Origin: Sanderia malayensis
Lineage: Eukaryota > Cnidaria > Scyphozoa > Semaeostomeae > Pelagiidae
NCBI GenBank assembly: GCA_013076295.1
Contig: RQOL01000776.1
Span: 1 to 64,000, forward strand
Length of the DNA stretch: 64,000 nt
Reading direction: 5' to 3'
How positions within the stretch are numbered: position 1 is the stretch's first letter; the number at the start of each line of letters is the position of its first letter. The notes below the pieces were generated by a model. The model made no database searches, was not told the origin of the DNA, and worked only from the letters and a program-made list of their open reading frames with translations. The translations under genes and the position numbers were made by a program. Of this stretch, positions 15,345 through 33,419 are shown piece after piece.

Positions 15345-15811
15345 AGTAGGAGATGAGGTAGGCGTCCTAGGACACGCATGCGCAGTAGAATGTGTTAAGA
15401 TCGCGCATGCGCGAGAGTCTTCGAGAATTGAAAAGAGCATGAACAGTAAAAAATAATCGAAAACGACAGGTTGTGGAAAGTTAGTTTGAAGTTGCAAAAC
15501 ATCGCCAAAGCTGATAAAAAAACCCATAAAAACCTTAATAACTAAAAAACGGTTTTGTTTATGAAAAAGATTTTTACAGCAATAAAAAGAAAATCTCTTG
15601 GTTATATTGAATGAATTATTTCATATTTTTCATGCACTTATAAGATGATAGAAATTTGTTAAATAAATCGCAAGAAAGCACAAAAATATCGAGGAACTGG
15701 CAAATTCACGTTCTCGGCTCGAGATTGAATTCAAAGAACCAATCAGAAACTTTCGAATGCGACGTTCGAATGTACGCGTCAAATCTCTGTCATGAGAAAT
15801 CAGAAACTTCT
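15345..15811. repeat. Polinton left terminal inverted repeat
   Basis: 467 bp, the reverse complement of 36769-37243. The outer part has two GCATGCGC palindromes resembling NRF1 sites. The inner end contains the first heat-shock-element-like cluster. Confidence 0.92.
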
Positions 15812-15970
15812 AGAAGTTTCCAGGAACTATCAACCAATCAGATCACAGGGACTTTTCAGAAGCTTCCAGAAGTAAGTTGTGGGAAAGTTCTAGAAAGTTC
15901 TATGACGTCATAAAGAAGTTTCCAGAAGCAGAAATCTCTACAATCTGATTGGTTGATTTATGTATATAAA
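15802..15970 (+). promoter_or_regulatory. Polinton polB promoter: heat-shock elements, CRE, CCAAT and TATA
   Basis: Four clusters obey the GAA-nn-TTC rule: 15803-15820 (four perfect units), 15859-15871 (three), 15883-15900 (four) and 15915-15927 (three). A CCAAT box lies at 15834-15838, a TGACGTCA at 15903-15910, an inverted CCAAT (ATTGG) at 15948-15952 and TATATAAA at 15963-15970. The polB ATG is at 16011. The layout is like that of heat-shock gene promoters. Inducibility is inferred. Confidence 0.7.
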
Positions 15971-16010
15971 TCATTCTCGGAATAAAATCACTTCAAATCA
16001 CGATCTAGTC

Positions 16011-19000
16011 ATGAAGAGATCACACGAAGAAAGCGCAGCTGCTGGTAATAGCAAGAAAAGAAAAATCTCTTGCTATCAATGTGGGAAAGTATTCAATAGA
16101 ATGGCGAATCTAATGGCGCACAAACAAACAACTCATAATGTACAATCGCCACCCAAATTAGTTGGCGAAGGTAGGAAAAAGAAGAAGATAGATGATAAAG
16201 CATTTAAAATATATACTAAGGAAGAGGATATTGAAAATATGAAAAAGATCAAGCAGCACATCATTCGCGAACTTATGAGTGAGATATTTACACATAAGCA
16301 AGGGATAAAGTATTATATTGTTCTCGAAGTAGAATTTCATAAACCGATAGGGGATATCATATCAGATCTACCGCCAGTATTCAGATCTGCTATCTATTCA
16401 CTGCTGCGATCAGAGATTGAAGATATCGAAGAGCTTGAAGACCAAATAGACGACGCCATAAGAAAGTTAAAAAATGACATAGATGAATTTACAGAAGATG
16501 GAAGCGGCTGGATATTTACAAAGTATATCAAACTGCTAGTGAAGATGTTCGACTATGAAGCAATCAAAGGTAAAAAATATTTGCAGCTACCCACCAACAT
16601 CAAAAACAAAAAAGCAGTCATTAACGTGCAAAACGATGATGATAAATGCTTCATCTGGGCAATTCTATCTGCACTACATCCACAATCAATCCATCCAGAA
16701 AGAGTCGCAAAGTATCAACAGTACTTGAACGAGCTTAACTGCGAGGGATTGAAATATCCAGTAAAAGTGCAAGATGCAAAGATGATTGATACATTCGAAA
16801 TAAACAACAACATTTCAATCAACATCTATTTAAATGAAGATGATGAAATTATACCAGTAAGAATAGCGAAAAAAAGAACTTGGAAAGCATGTGGATTTGC
16901 TACTAATAATTAATGATGATGATGAGAATCACTACTGCTGGATTAAAAGTATGAGTCGTTTGTTGGCCGGACGTCCTCGACATAAATATCATGGAAAACG
17001 TTTTTACTGTCCGCTATGCCTGTCATCATGTACAAGTCAAGAAAATCTAGATAAACATAAAACATTATGTCAGAAAATCAAAATCTTCCAAGGTGTTGAA
17101 TATCCCAAAGACGCAGAATTAAAGTTTGAACATTTTAAAACCAATGCATGCTACCATTCATCATATATGCAGATACTGAATCTATTTTGGAAAGTTCAAA
17201 CAAGGGAGCTGCTTATCAAGAACACAAACCAATCAGTTATTGTATTTACGCCACGTCAATCGATGATAGGTGGCAACGACCGTTGGAATGTTATACCGGA
17301 GAAGATTGCATGGAGGTGTTTATGAATAGTTTAGATAAGCTAAATGAAGAAATACGAACAGTATTCAAGAAAACCATGCCAATGATTAGATTAACACCGG
17401 AAGAAAATGCGGAACATGCTGAGGCTATGCATTGCTATTGTTGCAATCAACTATTCAATGATAATGATAGACAAAAAGTCAGAGATCATTGTCACATTAC
17501 CGGAAGATACAGAGGTCCAGCTTGCAAGCATTGCAACTTCAAACATCTGGATATAGTAGCAAACTATCACACCATCCCGATCGTCTTTCAAAATCTAAAA
17601 GGATATGATATGCATCATATTCTGAAGAATTTGAATGGCAGAAATGCAAAGATCATCGCCAATTCGAAAAAAAAGATCATGACTGCACAGATTGGTGGTT
17701 ATTCTGAAGAAAATGAAGAAGATAGAAATACCAATACTAATGGAATCAAATACATTGATTCATTCGCATTTTTAAGCACCAGCTTAGCAACACTGGCCAA
17801 CAACCTGCCGAAAGAAGACTTCATATCTATGAAAAAATACTTGCATGATGAGATCACCCAACAACAATATCCTGAGATACCTAGAAATGAAGGAGAAAGA
17901 GTTACAGAATTGGAAAGAGAACGCCAAAACATGTTTGAACCGGGCGTAGCATGCAAAGATCCGCTAAAAAATGAAGATGTTTTGGATTATAGAAATTGGA
18001 AAATACCACCAAAGAGAGCTTTAACAGAAGCAGAAGATGCAGATGTCAAGAAAGCGTTTGATTTGCTGACAAGGAAAGGTGTTTATCCCTATGACTGGGT
18101 GGATAGTATAGAAAAATTGCAAGAAACATCTCTACCACCAAAAGAAGCATTTTACAACAAACTCTATGATTCCAGCATCAGTGATGAAGATTATACATAT
18201 GCTCAACAGGTTTGGCAATTTTTCAACTGCCAGACCTTTCAAGATTATCATGAGCTATATCTGAAAACTGATGTGCTGCTGTTAGCTGATATATTTGAAT
18301 CGTTCAGAAAGCAGAGTCTAAAATTCTACAAGCTTGATCCTGCTCATTATCTAACTGCTCCTTCACTAGCTTGGGATGCAATGTTGAAGATGACTGGTGT
18401 AACGCTGGAATTACTATCTGAAGAAAAGAAGGACATTCACCTTATGATTGAAGATGGTATTCGAGGCGGTGTTTCGATAGCAGTGAAACGTCATGCTGAA
18501 TCGACGGAAAACAACACGTTGATGTACTTAGATGCAAACAATCTCTATGGATGGGCAATGTCGCAGCCAATGCCTTATGGTGGTTTCAAACAATTTACAC
18601 AAGAAGAAATTAAAAACACAAACATTGACGCTTTGTTGTCAAGATCTGATGAAGATATTGGCTACATTCTCAAAGTTGACTTAGAATATCCAGCCGAGTT
18701 ACATAATCATCATGCAGATCTACCATTAGCACCACAAAGATTACAAGTTCAAGAAGAAATGTTATCAAAATATCAAAGACAAGCTCATGGGGAAAAGTTT
18801 AAGTCGACACCAAAGCTAATACCAAATCTATATGACAAAAAAGAATACACCATGCATGAAAGAAATTTGAAGCAGTGTTTGGAATTGGGGTTGAAGCTAA
18901 CAAAAGTTCATGAGATTATTGAATTCAAGCAAAACTTTTGGTTGAAAAAATATATTGATTTCAACACTCAAAAGAGAACTCAAGCAAGAAACGACTTTGA

Positions 19001-19013
19001 AAAAGATCTTTAC
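16011..19013 (+). pseudogene. Polinton DNA polymerase B, frameshifted and 3'-truncated
   Basis: I chose the ATG at 16011 because it follows the TATA box at 15963 at a plausible distance. An N-terminal C2H2 finger (CYQCGKVFNRMANLMAHKQ) is followed by NDDDKCFIWAILSAL. A frame change occurs near 16870-16895, next to an A7 run, and another near 17140, returning to the first frame. Then come the exonuclease motif PFIIYADTES, an endonuclease-VII-like block (VRDHCHITGRYRGPACKHCN), NLKGYDMHHIL and polymerase motif A (YLDANNLYGWAM). The reading stops at DFEKDLY, before motifs B and C, where sequence antisense to a capsid gene begins. It cannot encode an active polymerase. Confidence 0.88.
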
Positions 19014-19293
19014 TACTCCTACAAATTCTGCAGTTGTTTTTCCAATATCAGCTCCATTTGCTTTCTTAATAGCAAGAGTTGAGACGAAATAAGAATGATT
19101 CAAGTCAATCATATGATCTGGCTGGGCAGGAATGTCAAACACAACAGTCTGCTTTGAGGAATTGAGAGCAGCAGTTTGTGGAAAATATTCAACATCTTTA
19201 AAACAATCAACATCGCTTTGAACTATCGGTGTACTGAATAAATAAATCTAAACTCTCACTAGGGCACTCAGTATATTCTGTTTTTATACTCAT
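19014..19293 (-). pseudogene. Polinton major capsid protein, N-terminal fragment
   Basis: Starts at the ATG at 19293, which overlaps the stop of the upstream core-like gene (ATGA). It reads MSIKTEYTECPSESLDLF, shifts frame near 19220, then gives FDIPAQPDHMIDLNHSYF and STLAIKKANGADIG. This resembles the first beta-strand region of Polinton and adintovirus double jelly-roll major capsid proteins, where an IDL segment is followed by NG. Everything after about 95 residues is gone, joined tail to tail to truncated polB. A single deletion across the convergent 3' ends explains both losses. Confidence 0.6.
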
Positions 19294-20020
19294 TGTAACA
19301 ATTTCTTCTTCAGCAGTTTCTTCAACAAATTTTTTCTCAAATCCAGTAGCGTCGTGGCCGGGGGGACCAGGGGGGGCCATGGCCCCCCGAAGAAAAGCAA
19401 AATTGTCGGATTTGTCGGAAAATTATGGGTTTTACTCAATTTTTTGGAAAATCGAGTCTTTAAATGCATCGTTTCTAATTTTGTCGAAAATTTTTTGTTT
19501 TTGGTCCCCCCTAAAACTTAGGCCCCACGACGCCCCTGCTCAAATCTGGACGCTTTGCTTCAGGCTTCTTGCTCTTATTTGGCATGAAGATCCCTCTCAT
19601 GGTGCTTTCTTTTATGGTTCTTTTAGGACGACTCCTTGATTTCCTACCAGTGGCAGGCTGCTTCTTACTGACAGAGCGCTTCTTGGCAGGTGGTTTTTTT
19701 GCTTTTTTTACGACATTTACAATTTCTTCAGTAGCTTTTCTTTTAATTCCTTTCATAGAAGATCGTGCGGTATCTTTCATAACATTTTTAACATTTTCAC
19801 CCGCTAAAACTCGATCAACCGCCTTTTCTCCAAAATCTTTTAAAACAGGAAGTATAACTTTTTTTGTAGATTTTAGTCCTTGCTTTTTCAAAACTGGTAT
19901 TGCAGCTTTAACAGCTCTTTTGAAAATAGACCCAGCTTTCTTGAAAATAGTACCTACTCCTCTCCCACGCTGGGAAGCATAGAAATATGGAGTTGATTTG
20001 TAAATTGGAAAATCATACAT
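19290..20020 (-). pseudogene. Polinton basic core-like protein (interrupted by a MITE)
   Basis: Reading from 20020: MYDFPIYKS, then ASQRGRGVGTIFKKAGSIF, then Lys- and Arg-rich runs (KKAKKPPAKKRSVSKK). The Gly-Arg-Gly plus amphipathic Lys pattern resembles adenovirus-like core or pX proteins, which condense the genome in the virion. Similarity is at the level of composition and pattern only. The hAT MITE at 19344-19538 interrupts the last codons. Without it and one target copy, the frame runs 176 codons to a TGA that overlaps the capsid ATG. The start overlaps the end of the minor-capsid-like gene. Confidence 0.55.
19344..19538. mobile_element. hAT-type MITE (195 bp)
   Basis: Its ends are CAGTAGCGTCGTGGCC and GGCCCCACGACGCCCCTG. 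It is flanked by a perfect 8-bp duplication, CTCAAATC (19336-19343 and 19539-19546). It lies in the 3' end of the core-like gene. It is G/C-tract rich, like the MITEs at 40859 and 52336. Confidence 0.9.
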
Positions 20021-21019
20021 GCTTTCTTCTAAAATGTAGCAAGAATGTTGTCTTTGTCTTGTAAAATTGTATATCTTTTCCTAGCTCGTTGTAGACTTTT
20101 ATAGTAAATTCGTTTATGTCGTTGTACAGCAACGGATAGTAGAACAGATTTTCAAATTCTAAAAAATTCAGCACATGTTTGTTAATCTTCAATGGAATGA
20201 AACGTAGCAATGGTGTGCTAATTTTCCCGACTACACGGTAGTCTAGCATGGAGCAATATATAAATATATTCTTCCCTTCTGCGTTGACTTGGATTGATCA
20301 CCAGTCACATCAGTTGTTCTTTCGATAGCCTTGAATGTATGATTTGATAGTAATCCAATAGGTGGATCTAGACTACTTGTAAACGGGCAAGGTGTCCATC
20401 TCACATCTCTATAATAGACATAATTTATATTGCGACTATATTCCTGCACATCTTCAACAAAACCAAACAATTTACCTAAATCTTTTCCCATTGCAATTCT
20501 TTTTGCATACTTTGGAAATGTTATCTTGACTTTTGAAGCAACAATTGAAAACTCTGGTCCACCTTCATAAGGTAAACCTAAATCAGTTACATATTCTTTC
20601 AGTTCTCCCTCTTGCTTTTTTACGTTTTCATTGAAAATTGCAACGATTTCTCTCATTGTGAATTTTTTAATAGTATCTCCACTCGAGATTTCATCATAGA
20701 AGTCGCGATATTGTATCCATCTCTCAGGTTTATCTGCTGCTTGATTCCATTTTTTCGTATATTCATTACTTGACGCTACTCTCACATTTAACTCATCAAA
20801 GCCAACCTTATCAGTGGCAAGTTGCATCAATCCACACATTTTCCAACTATTGTAAACACCATGTTTAAATTGAGCAGGATCAAATACAAGTCAATCACTC
20901 AGCTCATAGATCATTTCTACCAGCGCCACTTCCCATTTCCCATGTAAATGTAATTGTTCTTTAAGTTTTATTTTTCCATCAGAATCAGTAGGACATGTGA
21001 GGTAAAAATCATTAATCAT
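20013..21019 (-). pseudogene. Polinton minor-capsid (penton)-like protein, paralogue 1
   Basis: Starts at ATG 21017-21019 (MINDFYLTCPTDSDG) and has KWEVALVEMIYELS, a family hallmark. An in-frame TGA follows at 20891-20893. Reading resumes in the same frame to 20243. A frameshift near 20245 leads to MLDYRVVGKISTPLLRFIPL and then YYPLLYNDINEF and FLLHFRRK, the characteristic C-terminal jelly-roll block of Polinton minor capsid proteins. Length (about 330 residues) fits the family. One stop plus one frameshift make it a pseudogene. A paralogue lies upstream at 21394-22896. Confidence 0.7.
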
Positions 21020-21200
21020 CTTTAACGAATGATAAATCAATTTGACAATTTTCTTCAAATTTATCTGATATATCTTCCAGAGTTTCCCAGTTGATAATTT
21101 TAATATCGAATGATTTTATGTTAGATCTTGTTACTCTATACGGTGCTGGATTTATAGTTGATCTGTGAATTGATTTTGAATCGTCAATAACTAGCCCCAA
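21012..21200 (-). CDS. Small ORF in the Polinton structural block
   Basis: 62 codons ending within the start of the minor-capsid-like gene, an overlap typical of the compact minus-strand block. The product (FDIKIINWETLEDISDKFEE and an Asp-rich end) matches nothing I recognise. It may be the C-terminal remnant of a larger gene, since the upstream 190 bp are AT-rich and broken. Confidence 0.3.
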   Translation of the reverse strand: MGLVIDDSKSIHRSTINPAPYRVTRSNIKSFDIKIINWETLEDISDKFEENCQIDLSFVKDD

Positions 21201-21393
21201 TAGAGGAACAGCATCTTGCTACATTTTAGAAGAAAGCAGCATACTTATAATGAAATTGCAACAAACAGCAAACACTTTTTCACTCTCATCTTTTTCTTTT
21301 TTATTTAAAGTACAAGCAATCATACTACATTTTCAATTAGTACCCACTGGAAGTGGATTATCAAAATTTACATTCTATTATTTAGTGTCACAC
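21201..21393. other. AT-rich gap in the Polinton structural block
   Basis: No open frame of note. It separates the end of minor-capsid paralogue 2 from the small ORF at 21012-21200. Confidence 0.4.
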
Positions 21394-22896
21394 TCATATT
21401 ACTGGTCTAATTCGAACGGTCAGTGATGTTTCTCCAATATACTGCTTTGTGGAATCGAGAGATGTTAATTTTATAGGATTTCCATCATCATCTACCAATT
21501 TTATTTGAATTTGTTGAAACTGCAGCCTCTCCAGTGGTGTGTAAATTATATTCTTTGGAGCGTAATATCTAACATATGTATCGAGATCTGTATCGTAAAA
21601 TGCTAGTTTTCTCAAAACTCTTCGTTTGTTAACACCTCCAAGATAATTGCTTTCCAATAGATCACATTCTACATTTATAGAAGTATGTTCATTTAGATGA
21701 ACACCGTCCTTTACCGTAAATCTTCGAATAAGCCCCCACGTTCGAATAAGCGCCCCCCTCGATTAAGCCCCCACCTAAAAAATCATTTTTGCAAATAAGC
21801 CCCCCCCTCGAATAAGTCCCCATGGGGTCTTATTCGAGGGAAGCATAAGTGCAGAATAATATCTTAATTCGAGAAAGCCCCCACAGGACAATAGCTATAC
21901 AGTATCACTTCCTTAGACTCGAGACAAAAAAGCAAAAAGAAACGCGATTTTCGTGATGATAAACAAATTATAATATTTGTTAGATCTTCACACAGCACTT
22001 TCTGAAAAAAGTTTAGCTGATTGAGAAAACTATGTCGTCCTTTTTCTGTCAACCTTTGAGGAAAAAGCAAAACTTTTAAATAAGCCCACCCCTCAAATAA
22101 GCCCTCCCCTCGAATAAGCCCCCACCCAAAAATTCATTTTTGCAAATAAGCCCCCGGGGGCTTATTCGAGGATTTACGGTATTCTGCTTAAGCAGTTTAT
22201 CTTTCCTCCGGTCAGCGAGTCACCATCTGCCTTCCTTTTGTAAACAATCAGTTTCATTGTTTGACTGGATTGTATACTATCAGAAATCTTGTAGTGAAAG
22301 TATTTGACTATTGAACCATTTGATAAAGTGTGGGTGACCTGATCTTCTAAACCAAGAAAATGTGCCAAAGGTCTTGAAAATGTTATTAAAAGTGCACTAG
22401 TATATCTCCGTCATTTACCTCCATGAGTTGCAAAGCCTAATGTTTTCAAATCATCTTTCATTTCAAGCTGTATCTTTCCATCAATTAATGATACTGATAA
22501 TATGTTTTTTAATATGTACCCAAATTCAGGGAAATCCAAGACTCTATCATTGAAAAGTCTTTTGAATTCATAATACATCAGAGTATTATCACGGGTTTCG
22601 ATAATTTCTTTATCAAGACGGATCTTTTCATAGAAAAAACCATCTGTACCCCAAGAAATCAAATTTCCATCTTCATCGGTAATAGTCACATACTCGTTGG
22701 AAATTGAAAACCAGTATTGATCATGTAATGATTTTTCTCCTCTATCTGGCAGCGTCATTTGTAGTAATGCCATTTCCCATATTCTTTTATTGTTTAATTG
22801 AAAAACGTGAGGTAAATCAACTGTGAAATCTACTAGTTTTAATCTATCAGTAACAAATTCCGAAGGAAGAACCAAGTCAAATTCTTCATCAATCAT
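21394..22896 (-). pseudogene. Polinton minor-capsid-like protein, paralogue 2
   Basis: Starts MIDEEFDLVLPSEFVTD and has IWEMALLQMTLPDRG, parallel to KWEVALVEM of paralogue 1. An in-frame TGA at 22411-22413 breaks it, and the same frame continues (FSRPLAHFLGLEDQ). A MITE at 21714-22179 interrupts the last third. The C-terminus VECDLLESNYLGG, YYAPKNIIYTPLERLQFQQI and KLVDDDGNPI matches the C-terminal block of the same family. Without the MITE and one TA the frame is 345 codons with a single internal TGA. The start overlaps the integrase stop (ATGA). Confidence 0.65.
21714..22179. mobile_element. CCGTAAATC-ended MITE with TA target duplication (466 bp)
   Basis: It starts CCGTAAATCTTCGAATAAGC and ends with the complementary GCTTATTCGAGGATTTACGG, flanked by TA. 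It has many CGAATAAGCCCCC motifs in both orientations. A TA duplication suggests Tc1/mariner-type mobilisation. A relative lies at 51683-51939. Confidence 0.8.
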
Positions 22897-23948
22897 ATTG
22901 TCTCTAATTGACTTTCAGCTACCCACTCATCAAACTGGGGAGGATAACCTCTCCACCTGATTAAATAGAAGTTTTTACTTCTTTTTTTCTTAGTTTCCAA
23001 CACTTGCTCGACCACGAAGGTTTTTGGAAGATACACATGTTGTAGCTCCTCTTTATAGAAGCGATCATCTATCTCTTCATCTTGGAGACCTTCAATTTTA
23101 TACATTACTGGATACCTTTCTTTAAATACTTTGCTAATCTTGAATATTTCTTCAGTATAATTGTGTAAATAACCTTTCTTAAACATTCTTTTCTTCAAAC
23201 TCAGTCTTACATAATCTCCAATTTTAAAGATCTTTTTATTTTTTTTAGTTTCTTTTTTAAACAGGTTTTTTCGAACAGTGCTCACATTGTTTGGATTAAC
23301 TTCAGAAGGTCTCATACCAATAGATCTATGATAGGTATTGTTGTAAGAGTCAACAAAATCTTGTAGATTATCAATATATCTCAACGTATTTTTAGGTGTG
23401 AAGTATCTATACATTCTTCCTTTAAGTGTTCTATTGAATCTTTCCACAATTGCTGCCTTTACATCATTATTTGCAGTGTAAAAATCGATATCGTTTTTCT
23501 TCAGCAAAGCTTGAAATTCTTTGTTTAAAAACTCAGTACCTTTATCAGATCGTACCTTTTTGGGCTTTCTTTCCAATAAAATTTCTTTAAAAGCATCGAC
23601 AATTTCTTTTGCTGTTTTTCTTTTCAGAGGCTTTACCCAAGCATACTTGCTAAAAGTATCAATACAGCATAATAGAAATGTAATGTTGTTGTTTTCTTTT
23701 TTCAAATATGCCATATCAACAAGATCGCATTCCCATAAATAATCAATGTTATTAGTTAGTATCCGCTCACGTTTAAAGTTCCTCCTACTTGGTCTGTGCA
23801 ATGAATATGCAAGACTAGTTTTACTCCACTCTTTAACATCTTTTCTTGTTAGATTAGGAATTACTTTTTTAAATTCCCTATATGCTTTATCTAAACCTCC
23901 AAGAGAACCCGGAACAGAAGGATCAGAATATAACTTTTCTAGATTCAT
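22893..23948 (-). CDS. Polinton integrase with C-terminal chromodomain
   Basis: 351 codons, uninterrupted. The RVE catalytic residues are visible: Asp75 in ECDLVDM, Asp135 in RSDKGTEF and Glu169 in AIVERFNRTLKG. Residues about 310-351 form a chromodomain (EQVLETKKKRSKNFYLIRWR, then GYPPQFDEWV), which can direct integration to modified chromatin. The start codon overlaps the stop of the small basic ORF upstream, and the stop overlaps the next start. It cuts and joins Polinton ends to 6-bp staggered targets. It is one of the few intact genes in this copy. Confidence 0.92.
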   Translation of the reverse strand: MNLEKLYSDPSVPGSLGGLDKAYREFKKVIPNLTRKDVKEWSKTSLAYSLHRPSRRNFKRERILTNNIDYLWECDLVDMAYLKKENNNITFLLCCIDTFSKYAWVKPLKRKTAKEIVDAFKEILLERKPKKVRSDKGTEFLNKEFQALLKKNDIDFYTANNDVKAAIVERFNRTLKGRMYRYFTPKNTLRYIDNLQDFVDSYNNTYHRSIGMRPSEVNPNNVSTVRKNLFKKETKKNKKIFKIGDYVRLSLKKRMFKKGYLHNYTEEIFKISKVFKERYPVMYKIEGLQDEEIDDRFYKEELQHVYLPKTFVVEQVLETKKKRSKNFYLIRWRGYPPQFDEWVAESQLETI

Positions 23949-24169
23949 AACAAATCAATTAATATTTCTAACAATTTATCATTTATAGAGTTTTTCTTCC
24001 GTCGTCTGTATATTCCTTTCCTTTTGCCACATGATAGACGCTTTTTAGGCTTTCTTCCTTTATTTACGATCTTTTTGGGCTTTTACTTCGCCGGTTCATC
24101 AACAGTTGGAAATGATTCGCTAGGTTGTATGATTATCTTTTCAAAAGAAGTCATTTTTGCTGTTTTCAT
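23945..24169 (-). pseudogene. Small basic Polinton ORF with one internal stop
   Basis: Reading from 24169: MKTAKMTSFEKIIIQPSESF, then DEPAK, an in-frame TAA, then KPKKIVNKGRKPKKRLSCGK and IYRRRKKNS. It ends with a TGA that overlaps the integrase ATG. The position and the very high Lys/Arg content suggest a virion or DNA-binding protein. I do not recognise a family. Confidence 0.4.
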
Positions 24170-24183
24170 AAACATATAGATGG

Positions 24184-24858
24184 CTATTTATAACCTTTTT
24201 TAGACTTGTACACTGCCATGGGAGCTTCATGAGGGAATATATTTGTTCGAAATCTCATATCTTCATTCATTGATTGGGTGAAATCACAGAGTAGATATCC
24301 ATAAATTCTTGCTGTTGCATCATTATAAATGTCAAGAAATGTTTTAGGAGATGCAGGCATAATTTGTCGTGCGAGAAATCTAATTTGACTTCTATCTCTA
24401 GGATTTTTGAAAAGAACTTGATATTGAGTATTGAGAGCCAAATTTCCCATTTCCGTTCCTCTTGGGAAAGGATTTTGCATCATAACAATAACATTAATGT
24501 TGAGATGACATCTTCCTTTTGTGAACAATTTTACCAAATCTTTGAAGTTCGCAATTTCATGCATTAGATCATCAACAACAATAGTTAATCTTTTGTCTGA
24601 CCTCTCGATTTCTTCGTACAAGTCTTCAGGTAATTCAGTAATAAATCTACAATTCCCAACAAAACTTTTTTTAATACGCTCAAATAGCTCTGGCTGGTTC
24701 GTTCCTGAGATCCACATGAGATTGGGATATTGCCTGCCATCATCGATTATATTATTATAATTTTTAAATAGATTTTCTACCCAAGTAGTTTTGCCGCTTC
24801 CGCTTACTCCAGATAAAATCAGAGAAAAAGGTGCTTTAAATCTCAAGTCATAACTCAT
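24184..24858 (-). CDS. Polinton genome-packaging ATPase (FtsK/HerA type)
   Basis: 224 codons, intact. Walker A is GVSGSGKT (residues 17-24) after FSLILS. Walker B is LTIVVDDLM (91-99). NVIVMMQNPFPRG matches the sensor region of this family. The length fits Polinton A32-like ATPases. It would pump DNA into capsids. It precedes the small basic ORF and integrase on the same strand. Confidence 0.9.
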   Translation of the reverse strand: MSYDLRFKAPFSLILSGVSGSGKTTWVENLFKNYNNIIDDGRQYPNLMWISGTNQPELFERIKKSFVGNCRFITELPEDLYEEIERSDKRLTIVVDDLMHEIANFKDLVKLFTKGRCHLNINVIVMMQNPFPRGTEMGNLALNTQYQVLFKNPRDRSQIRFLARQIMPASPKTFLDIYNDATARIYGYLLCDFTQSMNEDMRFRTNIFPHEAPMAVYKSKKGYK

Positions 24859-24970
24859 ATTTATAACAAATTTAGAACGTCTCTTTGCAACAATAACTAA
24901 CCTCTATTTATAACAAATTCTAGAACAAATAACTAACAACTATTTTTAACATAAATAATGTTCATAGAAC

Positions 24971-25921
24971 TTAAGCAAACGGTGTGACTAAATTGTTTAT
25001 AATCCTGTTCAATATCTGTAGCAAATATACGGATGTAGAGAGGTTTGTATGTGATAATTCATCATACAGATTTCCGACATGGGATTTGATTGTTTGAGTT
25101 AGACGTCCATTCTTCAACTCATCAAACATTGATTTTTTGAACGATTCTTTCCCCTCAGCCAGCATATCGGCGTTGACATAACTGATGTGAAACGATAAAA
25201 ATCTGAAAGCATTGTGAACCATACAATCTTGCTTGTGGTCAGTAGCATCAATTGATGTAGAGTAAATCTCTGTAGTTGAGCATTTTTCACAGAATTGTTT
25301 TGCTTTTTTGAAAATGCGTTTCAAGAGAATTTTAGCATATGCTTCTTGTACTCGTACATCAGCATCTTCTTTTTCTTGGAGTTCAGCATATGCTTTTTGC
25401 AGCATTTCAACATCATTTCCTGATGCTGCTTTAACTGAGGAATCATCAACATGTTCTTTCTTTTTTTGAGCTGTGATATTTTCTTTTTTTTTCTTCGCAA
25501 CAGATTCGGCACTTCCAGAAGATGATGGTATAATCAATGATAGAGGCCTTTTGCGGGATGACGGTGCTAGCATTTTTAGATCAGCAAGCTTTCCATGCAA
25601 TCCTTCCAACATTTCTTCTTTAAGATTTATTCCAGTTTTAGTTGGTTTCTCATTCTTCCATCTTCGTATTCCCAGGCATAACTTTATGGGAAAATCACCA
25701 TTTTTCTGCAGATAGATTACAACCTTATCTTCATGTGCTTCTTCTTTGCTCAAAACTTCAGTGTATAGGGTTAGAAATTGAGTATACGTTCCCCCATATC
25801 GCTTCGTTTCAATGATGGCGCCGTTCTTCTCAAACAGACTTGTAACATCTTCTCCATGAAATTGTAATTTATGATTTATCTCATCGAGATTTATGTTGCT
25901 ATCAACTATTTCCAAGAGACG
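24971..25921 (-). pseudogene. Polinton gene of unknown function, C-terminal part (split by Gypsy)
   Basis: From the Gypsy insertion at 25921 it reads RLLEIVDSNINLDEINHKL onward to a stop at 24971. Notable are a Lys-rich, nuclear-signal-like tract (AKKKKENITAQKKKEH) and a repetitive Glu/Ala helix. The N-terminal 53 codons lie at 31250-31409, beyond the retrotransposon. Without the Gypsy element and one GACG the frame is 369 codons. I do not recognise the family. Its promoter carries the heat-shock-element arrays, so it may act early. Confidence 0.6.
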
Positions 25922-26177
25922 TGTAGTATATGTCATCTCAAGCTGATTATATAATTTATGTATCCTAAACTCTAATTTGTAAATCTGCTAACTCTGTTTG
26001 TGTACGTTCCGTTGTCTCTTGTAATGCTGTGTTAATAATTGTGATAATTCGACTTGTATGTTAAAATATTGATATTTTATCAAAGTTAGTTAGTCTTGAT
26101 TTGAGCATCAAAGGAATAAGTCACACGTTGTGTTTTATCTTGACTTGGCCTATCAAGCGAACCATATACACGCCACA
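25922..26177 (+). repeat. Gypsy 5' LTR
   Basis: 256 bp, TGTAG...CCACA, apparently identical to 30994-31249. Confidence 0.95.
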
Positions 26178-26206
26178 AATTGGTGACAGAGGTAACTGGT
26201 TACGAT

Positions 26207-27139
26207 ATGGCCGCTCAGATACTACCGGAACGTTTTCGTGAGGGAGACTTTGCTGCTTGGCTGCGTCATTTTGAGCGCTGTGCTACCGCAAATGCATGGA
26301 ACGCGAACACCCGTCTTGCGAAGCTACCAGCATTTCTACAAGGCCCAGCTGCCACCTATTTCGATTCTCTGGATGCGGAGGCTAAAGATTCTTATGAAGA
26401 TTTAACTGCCAGTTTACAGAATTGTTTCTCTCCTCCAGTCAATCGGGAAAAGTTCTATCACGAATTTGAACAGCAGCACCTACGCCCCTCAGAAGATCCT
26501 TCAATTTTCCTCTGGCGTCTCAAAGATCTTCTTCGCCATGCCGAGCCAACTCTCACCGATGACGCCTTCGATGCATTGTTGCGACGCCAATTCCTGAAAG
26601 GTTTACCCTTGCAGATCCGGATCAAACTTTTGGAAACAGATCCGACACCGGACTTGGACACCATGCTGTCTTTTGCACAGCGGTTTCGTGCTCTAGACTC
26701 GCCACCCACTGATCCTTCGGCGGCTTGTGCCGCTGTTAGCTGCCAGCCCGTTGCCGACCCACAGCCGTCACAGCCTCCTTCTGAGCCCAAACTGGACCGC
26801 CTCACTCAGCTTGAAGAAATTGTTTCCAAGATGGCGGTTCAACAGACCAATCTTATTGCCGCTATTTCTGCCACTTCCCGGCCTGATGCTACACCACCAC
26901 GACGATCCACCGATGTCCGTTGTTTTTATTGCCACGAGCATGGTCATTTTGTCCATAATTGCCCAGCTCGGAAGACTGCCAAACGCTGCACCGTTTGTAA
27001 TGGTTGGGGCCACGATCCGGCCTACTGTGCGACCAAAGCTTCAAGTTCCCGCATGGACATTCCTTCTTTTCAACCTTCTTTGTCTCAACATCAAAATCGT
27101 AAGTTTAATTCTTTAAACTTCAACGGGATGCCTCACTAA
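26207..27139 (+). CDS. Gypsy gag (capsid and nucleocapsid)
   Basis: I chose ATG 26207 (MAAQILPERFREGDFAAWL). About 310 residues. The capsid-like region has FREGDFAAWLRHFERCATAN and RLAKLPAFLQGPAATYFDSL, typical of metazoan Ty3/Gypsy gag. A nucleocapsid follows with two zinc knuckles, CFYCHEHGHFVHNC and CTVCNGWGHDPAYC. The stop is at 27137-27139, 18 nt after a slippery heptamer. It packages element RNA into virus-like particles. Confidence 0.93.
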   Translation: MAAQILPERFREGDFAAWLRHFERCATANAWNANTRLAKLPAFLQGPAATYFDSLDAEAKDSYEDLTASLQNCFSPPVNREKFYHEFEQQHLRPSEDPSIFLWRLKDLLRHAEPTLTDDAFDALLRRQFLKGLPLQIRIKLLETDPTPDLDTMLSFAQRFRALDSPPTDPSAACAAVSCQPVADPQPSQPPSEPKLDRLTQLEEIVSKMAVQQTNLIAAISATSRPDATPPRRSTDVRCFYCHEHGHFVHNCPARKTAKRCTVCNGWGHDPAYCATKASSSRMDIPSFQPSLSQHQNRKFNSLNFNGMPH

Positions 27140-27162
27140 AGGGCTGGAGTGATCAGCATCCC
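27112..27162 (+). promoter_or_regulatory. Gag-pol -1 ribosomal frameshift signal (TTTAAAC plus stem-loop)
   Basis: T_TTA_AAC at 27112-27118 sits in the gag frame as TTA AAC. A 6-nt spacer is followed by a stem: GGGATGC (27125-27131) pairs with GCATCCC (27156-27162), and TCACT (27133-27137) with AGTGA (27148-27152), with a 10-nt loop. A -1 slip at this point enters the pol frame exactly. This is the standard architecture of -1 frameshift sites. Confidence 0.85.
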
Positions 27163-27192
27163 TCTGTCTTTGCTATTGGAGTTGCCACTGCC

Positions 27193-30100
27193 ATGTCTAT
27201 TCCCAGCCAGCCTCTTGTTTTTTGTGAGTTTGAGGGAGGTATTCAGTTATCTGCTCTTGTTGACACGGGGTCTATGAGGTCCATTTTGAGTTTGGATGCT
27301 TGTCAACGGATCTTAGCCCTTCGTCACCCACCCCAAAACATGCCCAATCTTCATTGCAGTGGCAATTCTAATCCATGTTTGTCAGTTACCGGTCAGCCCT
27401 TAAATTCTGTAGGGACCCTTTCTACTCAGTTGTCTTTACCAGGCAGTAATTTCCAGTATTCTGGAGACTTTCTGGTCTGTGACAATATGTCACATCCCCT
27501 TCAGTGTATTTTAGGCTGGGATTTTCTGGTGTCTCACAGATTACAACTATCCTTTCTTGCTGGTTCCTATGTCCTTGTTGGCCCCCATGGTAGCACTCCC
27601 TTAAAACCTTTAGATTCTCATCCCTTGCCGCCCACTGTTTCAGGTGAAGTTTCTGTTCACCCCTCTCTGGGCAGGGAGCCACCCGTATTTGCCCAGTCTC
27701 AAACGTGTGGACCAGTGAAGGTGACCCTTGCTGATGGTTTCACTCTTCCAGGGCGTAGTGAATGTATAGTTCCATGTCACATCCCTAGCAGCAGCAGTAA
27801 CAAGCTTGGTATGATTAGTCACCAAGGAGAAACCCCAGGGTTTTTGGTTGCATGTACAGTTAGTCAGGCTATTAACAGAAGTGTTCCAGTTAAGATCATG
27901 AATCCGTTTAACACAGTCATAGAGTTACATGCCGGTCAAATTCTTGCACACTTCTTTCCCATCAGTGAAATAATTCCAGATTCATCTAACCAATCTAACG
28001 CTTTCACTGCCTGTGCTGTCACTGAACAAACCCCAGACTTTACAGAACAGACTTGGACTGAGATAACGGCTGCCATTAACCCTAATCTGTCTCCTGCAGA
28101 TAAGAAATCTTTGCTCAAAACACTGCAAGCCTTTCCTGACGTCTTTAACGACAGTTTGGGTCATACCACTGTACTTTCTCACAAAATAGACACTGGTGAA
28201 TCTGTACCCATCCGACAATACCCTAGGCGACTGCCATATCATTACAGGGCCGAAGTTGATAGACAAGTAAATGATATGTTGCATCAAGGGGTAATCCAAC
28301 CTAGTACCAGCCCCTGGGCTTCACCAGTGGTGCTTGTTAAGAAGAAAGATGGTTCATTTCGTTTTTGTATCGACTACAGGAAACTCAACCATGTCACAAA
28401 GATTGATGCTCACCCCCTTCCTAGGGTAGATGATTTGCTTGAATCATTAAATGGCAACACCATATTTACCACATTAGATCTTCGTAGCGGCTATTGGCAG
28501 GTCAGTATGGACCCCAATGACCGTAATAAAACGGCCTTTAGCACCCCTGGGGGGCTGTATGAATTTCTCCGCCTCCCATATGGGCTATCTGGGGCCCCAG
28601 CCACTTTTTCTCGTGCTATAAGTATTGTTTTATCAGGACTCTCTTATGAAAATTGCTTATGTTATTTTGATGATGTCATAATTTTCTCCAGGACAATGTC
28701 TGATCACTGCAAACATTTAACATCAGTTTTAAAACGATTTCGGCAGCACAATCTGCGTGTTAAGGCCTCCAAATGCTCTTTTGCAGCTGAGGAAGTTGTA
28801 TATTTGGGTCACACTGTGTCTCGTTCAGGTATTCATACCGACCCGAAGAAAGTTGAAGCAGTAAGAGACCTCTCTCCACCCACGAATTTGGGGGATTTGC
28901 GATCGTTTTTGGGTCTCGCAGGATATTATCGTAAGTTCATTCCCGATTTTGCCACTATCTCTGCCCCTTTAACAGACCTAACCAAGAAGGGTGTGAGGTT
29001 TATTTGGGATGAGCAACATCAACAGGCCTTTTTAACTCTCAAAAAACATCTCTGCTCTGCCCCAGTTCTTGCGTACCCCAACTTTTCTAAACCATTTATG
29101 TTACAAACAGACGCCTCTGATATGGGTTTAGGAGCTGTTTTAGCGCAGCACGATCCTTCTGGGGTTGAACGTGTGATTGCATATGCCAGCCGCACTCTTA
29201 CCACCCGTGAACGCAACTATACGGCCATGGAAAAGGAAGCACTCGTTATTGTTTTTGCCGTTCAGCATTTTCGGTATTACCTATTGGGTCAAAAATTTTG
29301 TGTCATCACCGACAATAGTGCTTTGCGTTGGCTTCGTTCCGTAGAACCGAAAGGCAGGATTGCGCGTTGGATCATGGAACTTCAGGAATTTGAATTTAGC
29401 GTACAACATAGACCTGGTACTGCAAACCAAAATGCAGATGCCCTTTCGCGGTTAAATCATAGTCTTTCTGATCCCATCAACCCAATGTGTTACTCAGTCA
29501 GTTTAAGCCCGGATACCAACTTATTTGAAGCCCAAAGGAGAGACCCTGATATCAGAAAAGTTATTGAAATGAAGGAACACAAGTTACCCAAACCACCCCC
29601 TTTCGTTTGGCAAGATATGCCAAACTTACGCACTTATTGGAATTGTTGGGACGAACTTTTTTTATGTAATGGTCTCCTCACTCGTTCGTTAGCCTCGCAC
29701 ACCAACTTCCCTAGAAATGCTGTTGTCCTCCCTACTGCATTAATTCCTAAGGTTCTGGCGGGACTGCACAGTAGCCCATCTAGCGGGCATATGGGCATTA
29801 ATCGTACTATAAATCGCGTTAAGGAACGTTTCTTTTGGCCCAAGATGCGAGATTCCGTAACAAGCTTTATCCAAAATTGTCGTGACTGTAGCAGTAGTAA
29901 ATCTAGCTTTCCTAAGAACAAAGCCCCTTTGCAACCCATACAAGTGAGCGAGCCCTTTGTATTCTGGGCCCTTGACTACATGGGCCCATTGCAAGAGACT
30001 GCAGCAGGAAACAGGCACATCCTTGTCGTAATGGACCATTTTAGCAAATGGTGCGAAGCTTTCGCCACAAAGGATCAGAAATCAACCACTGTTGCCCAAA

Positions 30101-30954
30101 TTCTTGTGTCCCGTTTGTTTTCTCGGTTTGGGCCTCCAACTGTTCTCCATTCTGATCAAGGCCGGAACTTTGATAGCAATCTAATGCACGAGGTTTACGA
30201 TATGATGGGTTTAAAAAAGACAAGAACAACAGCATATCACCCTCAATGTGACGGCCTGGTCGAACGACAAAACCGCACTCTACAGGAGATCCTTACTAAC
30301 TTTGTTTCCGACCATAGTAGTGATTGGGATGCCTGGCTAGACCAAGCAGTATTTGCATATAATACCAGTGTGCATGAATCGACCGGACTGTCTCCTTATG
30401 AGATAGTGTTTGGGAGGCCAGCCAGGATGCCCATAGAAGTAGAGCTAGGAGTACCACTACAGAACCCATCTAGCCAATCAGATTATAGCCAGTCACTTAG
30501 AAAAGCTATCCAGCTAGCAAACCAAGTAGCCCAGAACAACCTTGTTGAAGCTAGAATACGACAAAGTGACCAGTATAACAAGGGTTGCCAACGTTGGAAA
30601 CCGTTTGAGCAGGGGCAAACAGTTTGGCTAGCGCGCCCCAAAAAGTCTAAATTTGGGAGGAAATGGGTCGGTCCGTATATCATATCCAAGCGCAATGGGG
30701 TCAATTATGTACTTGGATCCCAAACGGGAAAGGACATTGTCGCCCACCATAACCAACTAAGACTTTGCCCTACCCCGTTGGATCAGGGCGTACCAGTACA
30801 ACCCTCTGTAGAGACACCAGGAATTATCTTTCGCGACCCGGAGCCGGTAGAACCACTAGAGGAGCAGGTTAATCAAGGCGGTGCTGTCAGACCTGCACGA
30901 CTCCGCCAGACCATTAACCCACCCCTCAGATTCGGAGAATTCGTAATGCACTAG
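27193..30954 (+). CDS. Gypsy pol polyprotein (protease, RT, RNase H, integrase)
   Basis: 1253 codons from the first ATG in frame. The frame is also open back to the slip site at 27112, so translation probably enters by -1 frameshifting. Aspartic protease: ALVDTGS (about residue 21). Reverse transcriptase: FCIDYRKLNHV (about 390) and CYFDDVIIF (about 489, the x-DD active site). RNase H: LQTDASD (about 637). Integrase: an H-H-C-C zinc finger (about 858-900), DYMGP (about 926), LHSDQGRNFDS (about 985) and GLVERQNR (about 1021), then a GPY-like module. No chromodomain. All catalytic acids are present and no stop is seen, so it may be competent. Confidence 0.95.
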   Translation: MSIPSQPLVFCEFEGGIQLSALVDTGSMRSILSLDACQRILALRHPPQNMPNLHCSGNSNPCLSVTGQPLNSVGTLSTQLSLPGSNFQYSGDFLVCDNMSHPLQCILGWDFLVSHRLQLSFLAGSYVLVGPHGSTPLKPLDSHPLPPTVSGEVSVHPSLGREPPVFAQSQTCGPVKVTLADGFTLPGRSECIVPCHIPSSSSNKLGMISHQGETPGFLVACTVSQAINRSVPVKIMNPFNTVIELHAGQILAHFFPISEIIPDSSNQSNAFTACAVTEQTPDFTEQTWTEITAAINPNLSPADKKSLLKTLQAFPDVFNDSLGHTTVLSHKIDTGESVPIRQYPRRLPYHYRAEVDRQVNDMLHQGVIQPSTSPWASPVVLVKKKDGSFRFCIDYRKLNHVTKIDAHPLPRVDDLLESLNGNTIFTTLDLRSGYWQVSMDPNDRNKTAFSTPGGLYEFLRLPYGLSGAPATFSRAISIVLSGLSYENCLCYFDDVIIFSRTMSDHCKHLTSVLKRFRQHNLRVKASKCSFAAEEVVYLGHTVSRSGIHTDPKKVEAVRDLSPPTNLGDLRSFLGLAGYYRKFIPDFATISAPLTDLTKKGVRFIWDEQHQQAFLTLKKHLCSAPVLAYPNFSKPFMLQTDASDMGLGAVLAQHDPSGVERVIAYASRTLTTRERNYTAMEKEALVIVFAVQHFRYYLLGQKFCVITDNSALRWLRSVEPKGRIARWIMELQEFEFSVQHRPGTANQNADALSRLNHSLSDPINPMCYSVSLSPDTNLFEAQRRDPDIRKVIEMKEHKLPKPPPFVWQDMPNLRTYWNCWDELFLCNGLLTRSLASHTNFPRNAVVLPTALIPKVLAGLHSSPSSGHMGINRTINRVKERFFWPKMRDSVTSFIQNCRDCSSSKSSFPKNKAPLQPIQVSEPFVFWALDYMGPLQETAAGNRHILVVMDHFSKWCEAFATKDQKSTTVAQILVSRLFSRFGPPTVLHSDQGRNFDSNLMHEVYDMMGLKKTRTTAYHPQCDGLVERQNRTLQEILTNFVSDHSSDWDAWLDQAVFAYNTSVHESTGLSPYEIVFGRPARMPIEVELGVPLQNPSSQSDYSQSLRKAIQLANQVAQNNLVEARIRQSDQYNKGCQRWKPFEQGQTVWLARPKKSKFGRKWVGPYIISKRNGVNYVLGSQTGKDIVAHHNQLRLCPTPLDQGVPVQPSVETPGIIFRDPEPVEPLEEQVNQGGAVRPARLRQTINPPLRFGEFVMH

Positions 30955-30993
30955 TATTCTCTTTCTCTTTACATCTTGTAAGAGGGGGGAAGG

Positions 30994-31249
30994 TGTAGTA
31001 TATGTCATCTCAAGCTGATTATATAATTTATGTATCCTAAACTCTAATTTGTAAATCTGCTAACTCTGTTTGTGTACGTTCCGTTGTCTCTTGTAATGCT
31101 GTGTTAATAATTGTGATAATTCGACTTGTATGTTAAAATATTGATATTTTATCAAAGTTAGTTAGTCTTGATTTGAGCATCAAAGGAATAAGTCACACGT
31201 TGTGTTTTATCTTGACTTGGCCTATCAAGCGAACCATATACACGCCACA
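30994..31249 (+). repeat. Gypsy 3' LTR
   Basis: 256 bp, preceded by the polypurine tract at 30981-30993 and followed by the target duplication GACG. Confidence 0.95.
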
Positions 31250-31409
31250 GACGAGCCAGTGCTGCATGAGAAATAGCCATTGATTTTACAGCTAGTGCAC
31301 CTTTAATCATATCTTTCACCACCAGCACCCATTTGTTAGAGGCAGCTTGAACAGCAAATGATGTCTTGATTAGGCCCTCTTCATTTCTAACTTCGTAAAT
31401 TCCTGCCAT
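31250..31409 (-). pseudogene. Polinton gene of unknown function, N-terminal part
   Basis: ATG 31409 (MAGIYEVRNEEGLIKTSFAV), 53 codons to the Gypsy target site. It continues in frame at 25917 once the retrotransposon and one GACG are removed. Its promoter at 31503-31777 contains repeated heat-shock elements, so the Gypsy insertion left the promoter in place but cut the protein. Confidence 0.65.
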
Positions 31410-31502
31410 GATTCTTCAGCGATTCTTTAGTGATTTTTTAAGCTCTGCACTCTTCAACAGCTCCGCACGACTGAATTGATTTAGCTTCCGACGTCTGTTT
31501 AT

Positions 31503-31777
31503 GTATATAAATCAACCAATCAGACTGCAGAGATTTCTGCTTCTGGAAACTTCTGGAAACTTCTGAAATATCTCTGTGATCTGATTGGCTGATAGCCTCT
31601 GGATACTTCTGGAAGCTTCTGCTCCTGGCAACTTCTGGAAACTTCTGAAAAATCTCTGTGATCTGATTGGCTGGATAGCCTCTGGAAACTTCTGGAAGCT
31701 TCTGCTCCTGGAAACTTCTGGAAACTTCTGAAAAATCTCTGTGATCTGATTCATCGTTCGAATGTTCTAGAACCTTC
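31503..31777 (-). promoter_or_regulatory. Stress-type promoter of the split Polinton gene: heat-shock-element arrays, CCAAT, TATA
   Basis: In the minus direction the order is HSE arrays, CCAAT (ATTGG on minus, 31516-31520), a TATATA-type box (31503-31510), then ATG 31409. Perfect alternating TTC-nn-GAA runs are at 31541-31563 (five units), 31607-31619, 31633-31645, 31685-31702, 31711-31728 and 31765-31777. The 17-nt CTGATTGGTTGATTTAT next to the TATA box is identical to the one in the polB promoter. Confidence 0.72.
31531..31752. repeat. Tandem repeat, 82-83 bp unit, about 3 copies, carrying HSE and CCAAT motifs
   Basis: CTGATTGG recurs at 31581 and 31663, with a degenerate copy near 31746. 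Units share CTTCTGGAAGCTTCTGCTCC and AAAATCTCTGTGATCTGATT. Tandem duplication has multiplied the regulatory motifs. Confidence 0.85.
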
Positions 31778-31833
31778 TTCGAAGTTTCTAGTTATTATTG
31801 AAAGGTGGTGTTAGCATTCGAAGTTCGAATTTT

Positions 31834-32385
31834 CTAGAACTTTCTTTCGAAAGCGTTTGAGGTAAATTCTTCTACAATTTCTGCTAGAACTTTAATCATA
31901 TCACTTAAAAATTTATCCTGATTCCACTCTATTAAATTTCCAGTTAAATAATAATACAGCAACTTCGCCAACCTTCCATTTCCATCAGGAAAAGGACGAA
32001 TCCATAATAACAATGCTGTATATTCTATTGGATTATAGTAATGCTGCCTCTTTATTAATTGGTTTAATAAAATTTCTATCTGATCAGGTTTACAATATTC
32101 AATTATCTCTGTTTCACTTATGCGTGCACATCTTACACTATTTGCAAATTTACCATGATATTCAGGTAAAATAAATTCATGTGTTTCTTTTACCATGTCA
32201 GTGTCGATTGTAAATCGAGTAATATAATTTCTACCAAGCACAAGCTCTCTTATCCTTCTTAGATATACATAAGCATCCTCTAAATTTGTCATGTTTATAC
32301 ATTCAACTTCACCTTCTGACTTTAAAATAGAATGCAACATCTTTCTTTCTACTTCATCAACATTAATTCTGTATACTCGATTCAT
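31834..32385 (-). CDS. Fic-domain-like protein in Polinton cargo
   Basis: 183 codons, intact. Residues 76-90 (YHGKFANSVRCARIS) resemble the G-x-F/Y-R strand of Fic proteins. Residues 120-146 (IEYTALLLWIRPFPDGNGRL, then AKLLYYYL) match the Fic core HPFxDGNGRxxR, but the catalytic His is Arg130 and the last Arg is Lys141. Fic enzymes transfer AMP or related groups onto target proteins. With His replaced, this one may be inactive, act as a decoy, or use different chemistry. It is on the same strand as the rest of the Polinton block. No adjacent antitoxin-like gene is seen. Confidence 0.7.
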   Translation of the reverse strand: MNRVYRINVDEVERKMLHSILKSEGEVECINMTNLEDAYVYLRRIRELVLGRNYITRFTIDTDMVKETHEFILPEYHGKFANSVRCARISETEIIEYCKPDQIEILLNQLIKRQHYYNPIEYTALLLWIRPFPDGNGRLAKLLYYYLTGNLIEWNQDKFLSDMIKVLAEIVEEFTSNAFERKF

Positions 32386-32491
32386 TATGAATTATTCTCG
32401 AGCTCCTATCTCCGCGAACTTCTTATTGGAAATGAGCTTTTTGTCTGAGATTTGTTCATCTATTTCTTTCAATTTTGTTCATTTAAAAATG

Positions 32492-32917
32492 TTAGGTTCT
32501 TACTCTTGCTATTTTTATAGATCTAGTCCCACTTCGTCTACCTTTCATATGCTTCTTCCGCTTCTTACGCATCCTCCGCTTTCGACCGCCTTGCATTTTC
32601 CTCATAGCTGTGTCTAAATCATACCCAGCTGCAACGATTGCTCCACCTTTTGCAGCTTTCTTAGCACCTCTCAATGCTATCTTTTTAACAGCTTGTTTAC
32701 TAACTCGTCTTGCTATCGCTCTTCCACCCTGTCTTACAGCTTGTTTAATAGCTTGCCTAGCTGCTACCTGTGCTATTGCTGAACCCATGTTTGTTGATTT
32801 CCTCTCTCCTCTCCGTTCACGTTTTCGTATTCTATCCCTTTTATACTTTCCTTCACCCGTCATTAGTTTAGTCGCTTCAACTCCACCATCATCCTTCAAC
32901 ATATCGTCTATCAGCAT
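32492..32917 (-). CDS. Basic Polinton core-like protein
   Basis: 141 codons. An Arg/Lys-rich N-terminal part contains GKYKRDRIRKRERRGERK. The middle repeats Ala, Arg, Gln and Val in amphipathic helices (ARQAIKQAVRQGGRAIARRV). Then come GAKKAAKGGAIVAAGYDLD and a very basic end (GGRKRRMRKKRKKHMKGRR). Composition fits a DNA-condensing virion protein such as adenoviral pVII or mu. I cannot assign it to a family. Conceivably the true start is internal (MGSAIAQVAARQAI). Confidence 0.5.
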   Translation of the reverse strand: MLIDDMLKDDGGVEATKLMTGEGKYKRDRIRKRERRGERKSTNMGSAIAQVAARQAIKQAVRQGGRAIARRVSKQAVKKIALRGAKKAAKGGAIVAAGYDLDTAMRKMQGGRKRRMRKKRKKHMKGRRSGTRSIKIARVRT

Positions 32918-33039
32918 TGATAGACGATATGTATGATATGACGATATGACGATATATATTATGCTACAACACTTGCTGCTATGCTAGCCATGATTATATT
33001 ATAGCTATTAAATTGTAGCGTTCTTCCTTCTTTTATAAT

Positions 33040-33319: not shown

Positions 33320-33419
33320 CTTTATTTATGAGGTAAATGCATTGTTTTTATAAGAAATTTAAGACGAACAAGCTGTTTAATGAATGCGTGCATTGCCCTC
33401 CGACATTGTGCCATTTTCA

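Follow-up and report, generated by a model that had tools for sequence, protein, structure and literature searches.

A Polinton/Maverick-like DNA element in the genome of the scyphozoan Sanderia malayensis carries arrays of perfect alternating GAA and TTC units, the pattern of heat-shock elements (HSEs), in two promoters located on opposite strands, one upstream of polB and the other upstream of a second gene. The element lies in a stretch of 64,000 nucleotides (contig RQOL01000776.1, positions 1 to 64,000), which is called the window below. The arrays were found far more often than in shuffled sequence, in every family copy examined of both promoters, and in the hsp promoters of the host. On this sequence evidence we consider it probable, at roughly 60%, that the heat-shock factor (HSF) of the host would bind the arrays under proteotoxic stress and turn on polB and the second gene.

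HSE arrays in the window

In the window, 15 arrays of three or more perfect alternating GAA/TTC units were found. The polB promoter contains four of them and the second promoter seven; two more lie in partial copies of the terminal inverted repeat (TIR) in the right part of the element, and the last two, both of three units, in the 42.1 kb outside the element. Eleven of the 13 arrays of the element are located just upstream of the TATA boxes of the two promoters. A first-pass annotation, made from the letters alone, had placed arrays of four units at 15803-15820 and at 15883-15900 and an array of five units at 31541-31563; all three were recovered at these positions.

The annotation had suggested a comparison with shuffled sequence, and the arrays proved to be far above it. 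The window contains seven arrays of at least four units, whereas the shuffles average 0.045 and none of 200 reaches seven. For arrays of at least three units, the four of the polB promoter compare with a shuffle mean of 0.019 and the seven of the second promoter with 0.033, and neither count was reached in 1000 shuffles. Since the array at 15803 forms an inverted repeat (GAAACTTC followed by GAAGTTTC), the arrays are more than a tandem 10-mer.

Layout and paralogy of the two promoters

The positions of all promoter features are listed in Table 1. The order of HSEs, CCAAT box and TATA box that had been described for both promoters was confirmed: each is made up of HSEs, a common block, ATTGG and TATA. 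Among the 40 copies of the polB promoter examined (see below), a four-unit array is present in 38 and the exact sequence TCTGATTGGTTGATT in 31. The palindrome TGACGTCA at 15903-15910 resembles a cAMP response element (CRE). Transcription of polB would start near 15994, and the first ATG past this start is at 16011; transcription from the second promoter would start near 31478 (-).

In 17 of 20 copies compared (L003-L016 and L018-L020), an extra three-unit array (GAAACTTCTAGAA) was observed 0.8-1.2 kb upstream of the polB promoter. This array is absent from the window copy and from its partner on C781, and L017 gave no usable offsets.

For the second promoter, the tandem duplication of 82-83 bp noticed earlier is real: three copies were found at 82- and 83-bp spacing, the first of which (31509-31586) is only 69% like the reference copy. 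A comparable HSE-CCAAT-HSE unit occurs one to four times per locus in 30 second-promoter loci. The 17-mer said to be identical in the two promoters occurs once per strand, at 15945-15961 (+) and 31507-31523 (-), and it forms part of a wider homology between the promoters, with 64 of 74 and 62 of 73 bases equal over the HSE-CCAAT-HSE modules. Judged by their sequences, the polB promoter and the second promoter are paralogous.

Table 1. Positions of the element, its genes and the parts of its two HSE promoters in the window.
Feature	Position	Strand	Remark
Polinton/Maverick-like element	15345..37243		TIR arms 15345-15761 / 36820-37243
HSE array, 4 perfect units	15803..15820	(+)	inner edge of left TIR
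CCAAT box	15834..15838	(+)	CAACCAATCAGAT in 37/40 polB-promoter copies
HSE array, 3 units	15859..15871	(+)	
HSE array, 4 units	15883..15900	(+)	
CRE-like perfect palindrome TGACGTCA	15903..15910	(+)	intact in 34/40 copies; absent from first-pass annotation
HSE array, 3 units, proximal	15915..15927	(+)	
17-mer common to second promoter	15945..15961	(+)	includes inverted CCAAT (ATTGG 15948-15952)
TATA box	15963..15969	(+)	TATATAAA in 39/40 copies
polB gene	16011..19082	(+)	open reading frames (ORFs) 15960-16913, 16951-17325, 17148-19082; reading frame broken up in window copy
Integrase with chromodomain	22893..23948	(-)	rve E 2.5e-11, Chromo E 1.9e-8
A32-like packaging ATPase	24184..24858	(-)	Pox_A32 E 5.2e-7
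Second gene, rest	24971..25920	(-)	
Gypsy long terminal repeat (LTR) retrotransposon inside second gene	25921..31249	(+)	ORFs 26207-27139 and 27193-30954; 257-bp repeats identical
Second gene, start portion	31250..31409	(-)	starts at 31409; interrupted by Gypsy insertion
Second HSE promoter region	31410..31870	(-)	includes predicted 5' untranslated part
TATA-like TATATACATA	31500..31509	(-)	GATTGGTTGATTTAT[AG]TA in 23/30 second-promoter loci
CCAAT box (reads ATTGG along transcription)	31516..31520	(-)	TCTGATTGGTTGATT in 29/30 loci
HSE array, 5 units	31541..31563	(-)	
Two near-identical 78-nt units of 82/83-bp tandem repeat	31591..31751	(-)	HSE arrays at 31607, 31633, 31685, 31711
HSE arrays, 4 units	31685-31702 and 31711-31728	(-)	
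HSE array, 4 units	31760..31777	(-)	
HSE array, 4 units	31827..31844	(-)	

Comparison with host hsp promoters and HSF genes

The same kind of arrangement was found in promoters of the host genome (184 Mb, 918 contigs). Relative to the ATG of a cytosolic-type hsp70 gene (L071), a three-unit array starts at -409, a five-unit array at -299 and a three-unit array at -128, with a CCAAT box at -169 and a TATA-like box at -104. The hsp110 gene (L100) has a four-unit array from -236 and a five-unit array from -118, without CCAAT. Arrays of at least three units are present within 500 bp of four of the five hsp70-family starts used, a set that does not include the starts in L083 and L087. Among the protein matches listed for host HSP70, the closest named full-length one is from the jellyfish Rhopilema (78%), and a EukProt protein reaches 94%.

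The element had been credited with the design of hsp70-type promoters. This stands as a list of parts, host hsp70 having HSEs, CCAAT and a TATA-like box; it does not stand as a statement of descent. The core of the second promoter scored above all of 1000 shuffles when compared unmasked with the promoter hsp70_443k; with the HSEs masked, 45 of 1000 shuffles reached its score, and the capture of a host hsp70 promoter is unsupported. For the other three HSE-masked pairs of Polinton and hsp70 promoters, 82, 580 and 228 of 1000 shuffles reached the score. Since the similarity is borderline or at chance level after masking, we regard the likeness as one of design, not of descent.

Five matches to the HSF_DNA-bind profile (PF00447) lie above the cut-off in the host genome, at C809, C901, C571, C829 and C616; the C809 and C901 matches have identical scores. 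Host HSF might bind the arrays for a different purpose, namely germline or developmental expression by an HSF active in gametes or embryos, where transposition is heritable, heat being incidental. This explanation rests on the same sequence evidence as the stress reading and is in line with the five HSF_DNA-bind matches, with the CRE-like site of the polB promoter and with the action of HSF5, without stress, in male meiotic prophase (PMC11059408). HSF2, however, is described as preferring two or three repeats, in contrast to HSF1 with its preference for longer arrays (PMC12047821), and four- to six-unit arrays are common here. Such use is the leading alternative and seems to us unlikely, if worth keeping in view.

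Retention of the arrays and tests of constraint across family copies

For the polB promoter, 40 of 138 candidates were scored, giving 40 long and 10 short matches, and the 40 long ones were examined; for the second promoter, 40 of 191 candidates were scored, giving 47 rows, and 30 loci were examined. Arrays of at least three units were present in 40 of 40 copies of the former and in 30 of 30 loci of the latter, so the comparison with related copies that the first-pass annotation had proposed found the arrays kept throughout. The longest array, counted over the whole locus, had four units in nine second-promoter loci, five in 16 and six in five.

Changes per site were counted on a tree of the 40 polB-promoter copies. 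The values were 0.33 for the GAA/TTC letters, 0.45 for the spacers and 0.60 for the rest of the promoter; the TATA box had no change in 7 sites, the CRE-like site 0.62 and the region downstream 0.80. A second set joined 116 paralogous units (60 distinct) of both promoters, units without an end-to-end match being left out. Here the core letters had 1.19 changes per site, the spacers 2.30 and other sites 1.88, and in permutations the core was lower than all other sites (P 0.013), than spacers (P 0.015) and than non-spacer sites (P 0.028). A stricter unit filter, which left 12 units only, gave no lower core change (2 changes in 24 core sites versus 1 in 47 others). Since sites are taken as exchangeable in these permutations and the units have a history in common, the 116-unit result lends modest support to the view that the GAA/TTC letters are under constraint.

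These data bear on the possibility that the arrays are inert, being a short palindromic repeat that slippage and tandem duplication have multiplied and that a young family carries along. The 82/83-bp tandem units, one to four per locus, agree with such an origin, as do a conservation test of the polB promoter that was not significant and perfect six-unit patterns in phage contigs (both described below); the location of 11 of 13 element arrays directly upstream of the TATA boxes of two promoters, the smaller number of changes at core letters than at spacers in the 116-unit set and the presence of the same kind of arrays in host hsp promoters argue against it. We judge inert repeats to be distinctly unlikely.

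Genome-wide distribution of long arrays

The five-unit pattern gave 93 matches in the host genome, compared with 3 for a backwards control, and the four-unit pattern gave 492, compared with 30. A six-unit array is matched twice by the five-unit pattern, and the 93 matches therefore correspond to 83 merged arrays. The family to which the element belongs accounts for 59 of the 93 matches, or 52 of the 83 arrays when merged by hand: 36 matches are at second-promoter copies, 15 lie within 20 kb of a family integrase, four are in family sequence with no integrase nearby and four are upstream of the right-end gene of the family (C434:72339, 93298, 110386; C426:76117). One match each was found at host hsp70 and hsp110. 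Nine sites fell outside all classes (C155:1283169, C405:1990511, C478:4260277, C487:54875, C686:4808929, C781:4033880 and three on C815); L101, taken from C815, had no match to anything in the window.

The right-end gene, for which the best 40 of 109 candidates were scored, has a variant upstream region with a five-unit array of its own: four of the 40 listed places match beyond the 5' part of the gene.

Integrase places, for which 116 of 626 candidates were scored, were divided into those of the family (54-100% identity) and those of a second lineage, lineage B (40-46%). A five-unit site was found within 20 kb of 38 of 78 family places and of none of 17 lineage-B places (Fisher P 6.5e-5, the places not being independent). 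Among the matches listed for the four-unit pattern, none was on C245, C250 or C289, three of the contigs that carry lineage-B integrases. Integrases of 88%, 85% and 75% identity (P0001-P0003) are encoded by other species.

The empty lineage-B places also count against a model in which the arrays bind a protein of the element itself, such as the integrase, a terminal-protein complex or the putative Pur-like product of the second gene, for end recognition or replication. One array does lie at the TIR's inner edge, and partial copies occur at the right, as such a model would have it; the densest arrays (31541-31844), however, are internal and far from the ends, and we hold the model to be very improbable.

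Observations that weigh against a heat-shock function

Several results speak against the stress reading. The copies examined were the best-scoring candidates, a choice that favours well-kept promoters, and they are not independent, since at least two of them (in the window and on C781) are the same insertion. In the polB promoter alone, the lowering at core letters fell short of significance (permutation counts of 1867 in 20000 against spacers and other sites together and of 7041 in 20000 against spacers), the region immediately upstream of the promoter was equally conserved (0.35 versus 0.33 changes per site), and 13 of 80 shifted masks equalled or beat the GAA/TTC mask. Another simple repeat (GAAATTTCATGAAATTTCATGAA and kin; for example C44:19711) makes up 23 of the 93 five-unit matches. 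The perfect six-unit pattern was also found in 15 viral_contigs records, with phage-type genes in all three that were searched for genes (L108, L113, L114), so that a GAA/TTC pattern alone is no proof of an HSE. Finally, the window copy of the element is damaged, its polB frame being present only in pieces and its second gene being split by a Gypsy-like retrotransposon.

One perfect six-unit GAA/TTC run is common to the viral_contigs records L103, L113 and L116, on one strand or the other. It is likely to be a palindrome array of a phage rather than an HSE, because L113 has terminase- and portal-like genes.

Proposed mechanism

In the stress reading, which we prefer, the arrays would be functional HSEs. 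In a stressed cell, HSF trimers of the host would bind the three- to six-unit arrays of the two paralogous promoters, and CCAAT- and CRE-binding factors would assist HSF there; HSF1 is described as binding longer HSEs cooperatively (PMC12047821). TATA-dependent transcription would then yield polB from one strand and, from the other, the second gene, whose product is perhaps a Pur-alpha-like single-strand-binding protein. Replication of the element would thereby be coupled to proteotoxic stress. The arrays, their layout and retention, the parallel with host hsp promoters and the host HSF genes are observed; that HSF binds the arrays, that stress induces the genes, what the second protein does and any benefit to the element are inferred.

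More tentatively, and at less than even odds, the system may be a stress switch akin to prophage induction. It would consist of an HSF-driven replication module (polymerase and single-strand-binding protein) under two paralogous HSE promoters, in a family that, as the main source of long arrays, might be able to rewire the heat-shock response of the host.

Anatomy and state of the window copy

The TIR arms are 97-98% complementary, and the hexamers that flank the element (ATTGCA and ATTGCG) form a 6-bp target-site duplication, equal at five of six positions with one mismatch. Of the features by which Polintons/Mavericks are recognized, the window copy has a chromodomain-type rve integrase, an A32-type ATPase, and long TIRs with a target-site duplication.

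An Endonuclease_7 match (E 9.3e-6) was found in the polB region of the window copy, and profile searches of the window proteins gave no match to DNA_pol_B_2. This domain was matched below the cut-off in the copy L118 and above it about 2 kb downstream of two other polB-promoter copies, which have frames of 968 and 973 amino acids on C829. The second gene is uninterrupted, with natural frames of 368 amino acids, in L027 and L033; with low confidence, its product may be Pur-alpha-like.

The name Gypsy for the retrotransposon inside the second gene reflects how its proteins look; it was not assigned by a family search. The C781 copy has the same flank as the window copy, and the LTR is present in both, the body of the retrotransposon lying beside it in the window copy only; the two copies are the same insertion. 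The LTR at this place in the C781 copy (L022, 1086-1342) is identical but adjoins other DNA, and it may be a solo LTR of the other haplotype.

The ORFs at 19511-20020, 20243-20839 and 22411-22896 had no Pfam match, and no search aimed at capsid proteins was made. A Fic/DOC-domain gene (31834-32385, minus strand, E 2.3e-7) lies inside the element and adjoins the second HSE promoter. In the right part of the element, extra partial TIR copies are present at 34685-34983 and 35029-35142, and one end of each has a three-unit HSE fragment. At 21718-22155 there are two 87-nt copies, 80% alike and 351 bp apart, that are rich in AATAAGCCCCC-like units. An ORF at 57019-57852 (plus strand) has a weak match, below the cut-off, to the replication-associated protein ORF2/G2P (E 9e-4).

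Relation to known systems

No trigger that wakes integrated animal Polintons is known to us, and a defined multi-copy HSE promoter would be a simple, testable one. HSE-driven mobile elements are already known, and the Polinton case appears new as far as we searched: no report of an HSE-driven Polinton was found in the literature covered, subscription papers being mostly outside reach. No relatives were confirmed in viral_contigs by integrase or ATPase, and a DNA search with the polB promoter region and the TIR gave no match to phage records.

The host hsp70 and hsp110 promoters (L071, L100) resemble those of the element in having HSE arrays of three to five units near the start, and hsp70 also in its CCAAT and TATA-like boxes; they differ in that homology beyond the HSEs does not clearly survive masking. 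DIRS-1 of Dictyostelium is a known HSE-bearing mobile element. Whereas DIRS-1 is a retrotransposon of an amoeba, the element described here is a virus-like DNA element, whose arrays are internal except for one at the edge of the TIR.

Maverick particles have not been observed so far, according to PMC8097293. In a sea anemone at low pH a Polinton-like transcript rose 5.95-fold and Hsp70 also rose (PMC6505742); we give this study little weight because two transcripts of its Table 1 bear the identifiers of Hsp90 and Grp94 in its Table 2.

In C. elegans, 61.4% of HSEs lie in Helitrons, which make up 1.7% of the genome (PMC6927752). There, as here, one group of DNA transposons supplies the majority of the HSEs of a genome; here, unlike in the Caenorhabditis Helitrons, the predicted HSE arrays are promoters of the element's own genes, with CCAAT and TATA boxes. 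Because most of the long arrays (59 of the 93 five-unit matches) are its own, the family is a candidate agent of change in the set of heat-responsive host genes, an effect reported for those Helitrons.

Herpesvirus promoters with HSEs include those of EBNA-1 and BZLF1 of Epstein-Barr virus and of ORF50 of Kaposi's sarcoma-associated herpesvirus (PMC12047821). There, too, host HSF is put to use by a DNA virus, the promoters being those of genes for latency or reactivation. The ORF50 site has three units and the BZLF1 site two, whereas several arrays of three to six units are present here per promoter. The endogenous mavirus-like elements (EMALEs) are likewise relatives of Polintons in integrated form, and their promoter motifs match the signal of their trigger (PMC8547959); the EMALE motif matches the late promoter of a giant virus, whereas the motif found here would answer to a stress factor of the host.

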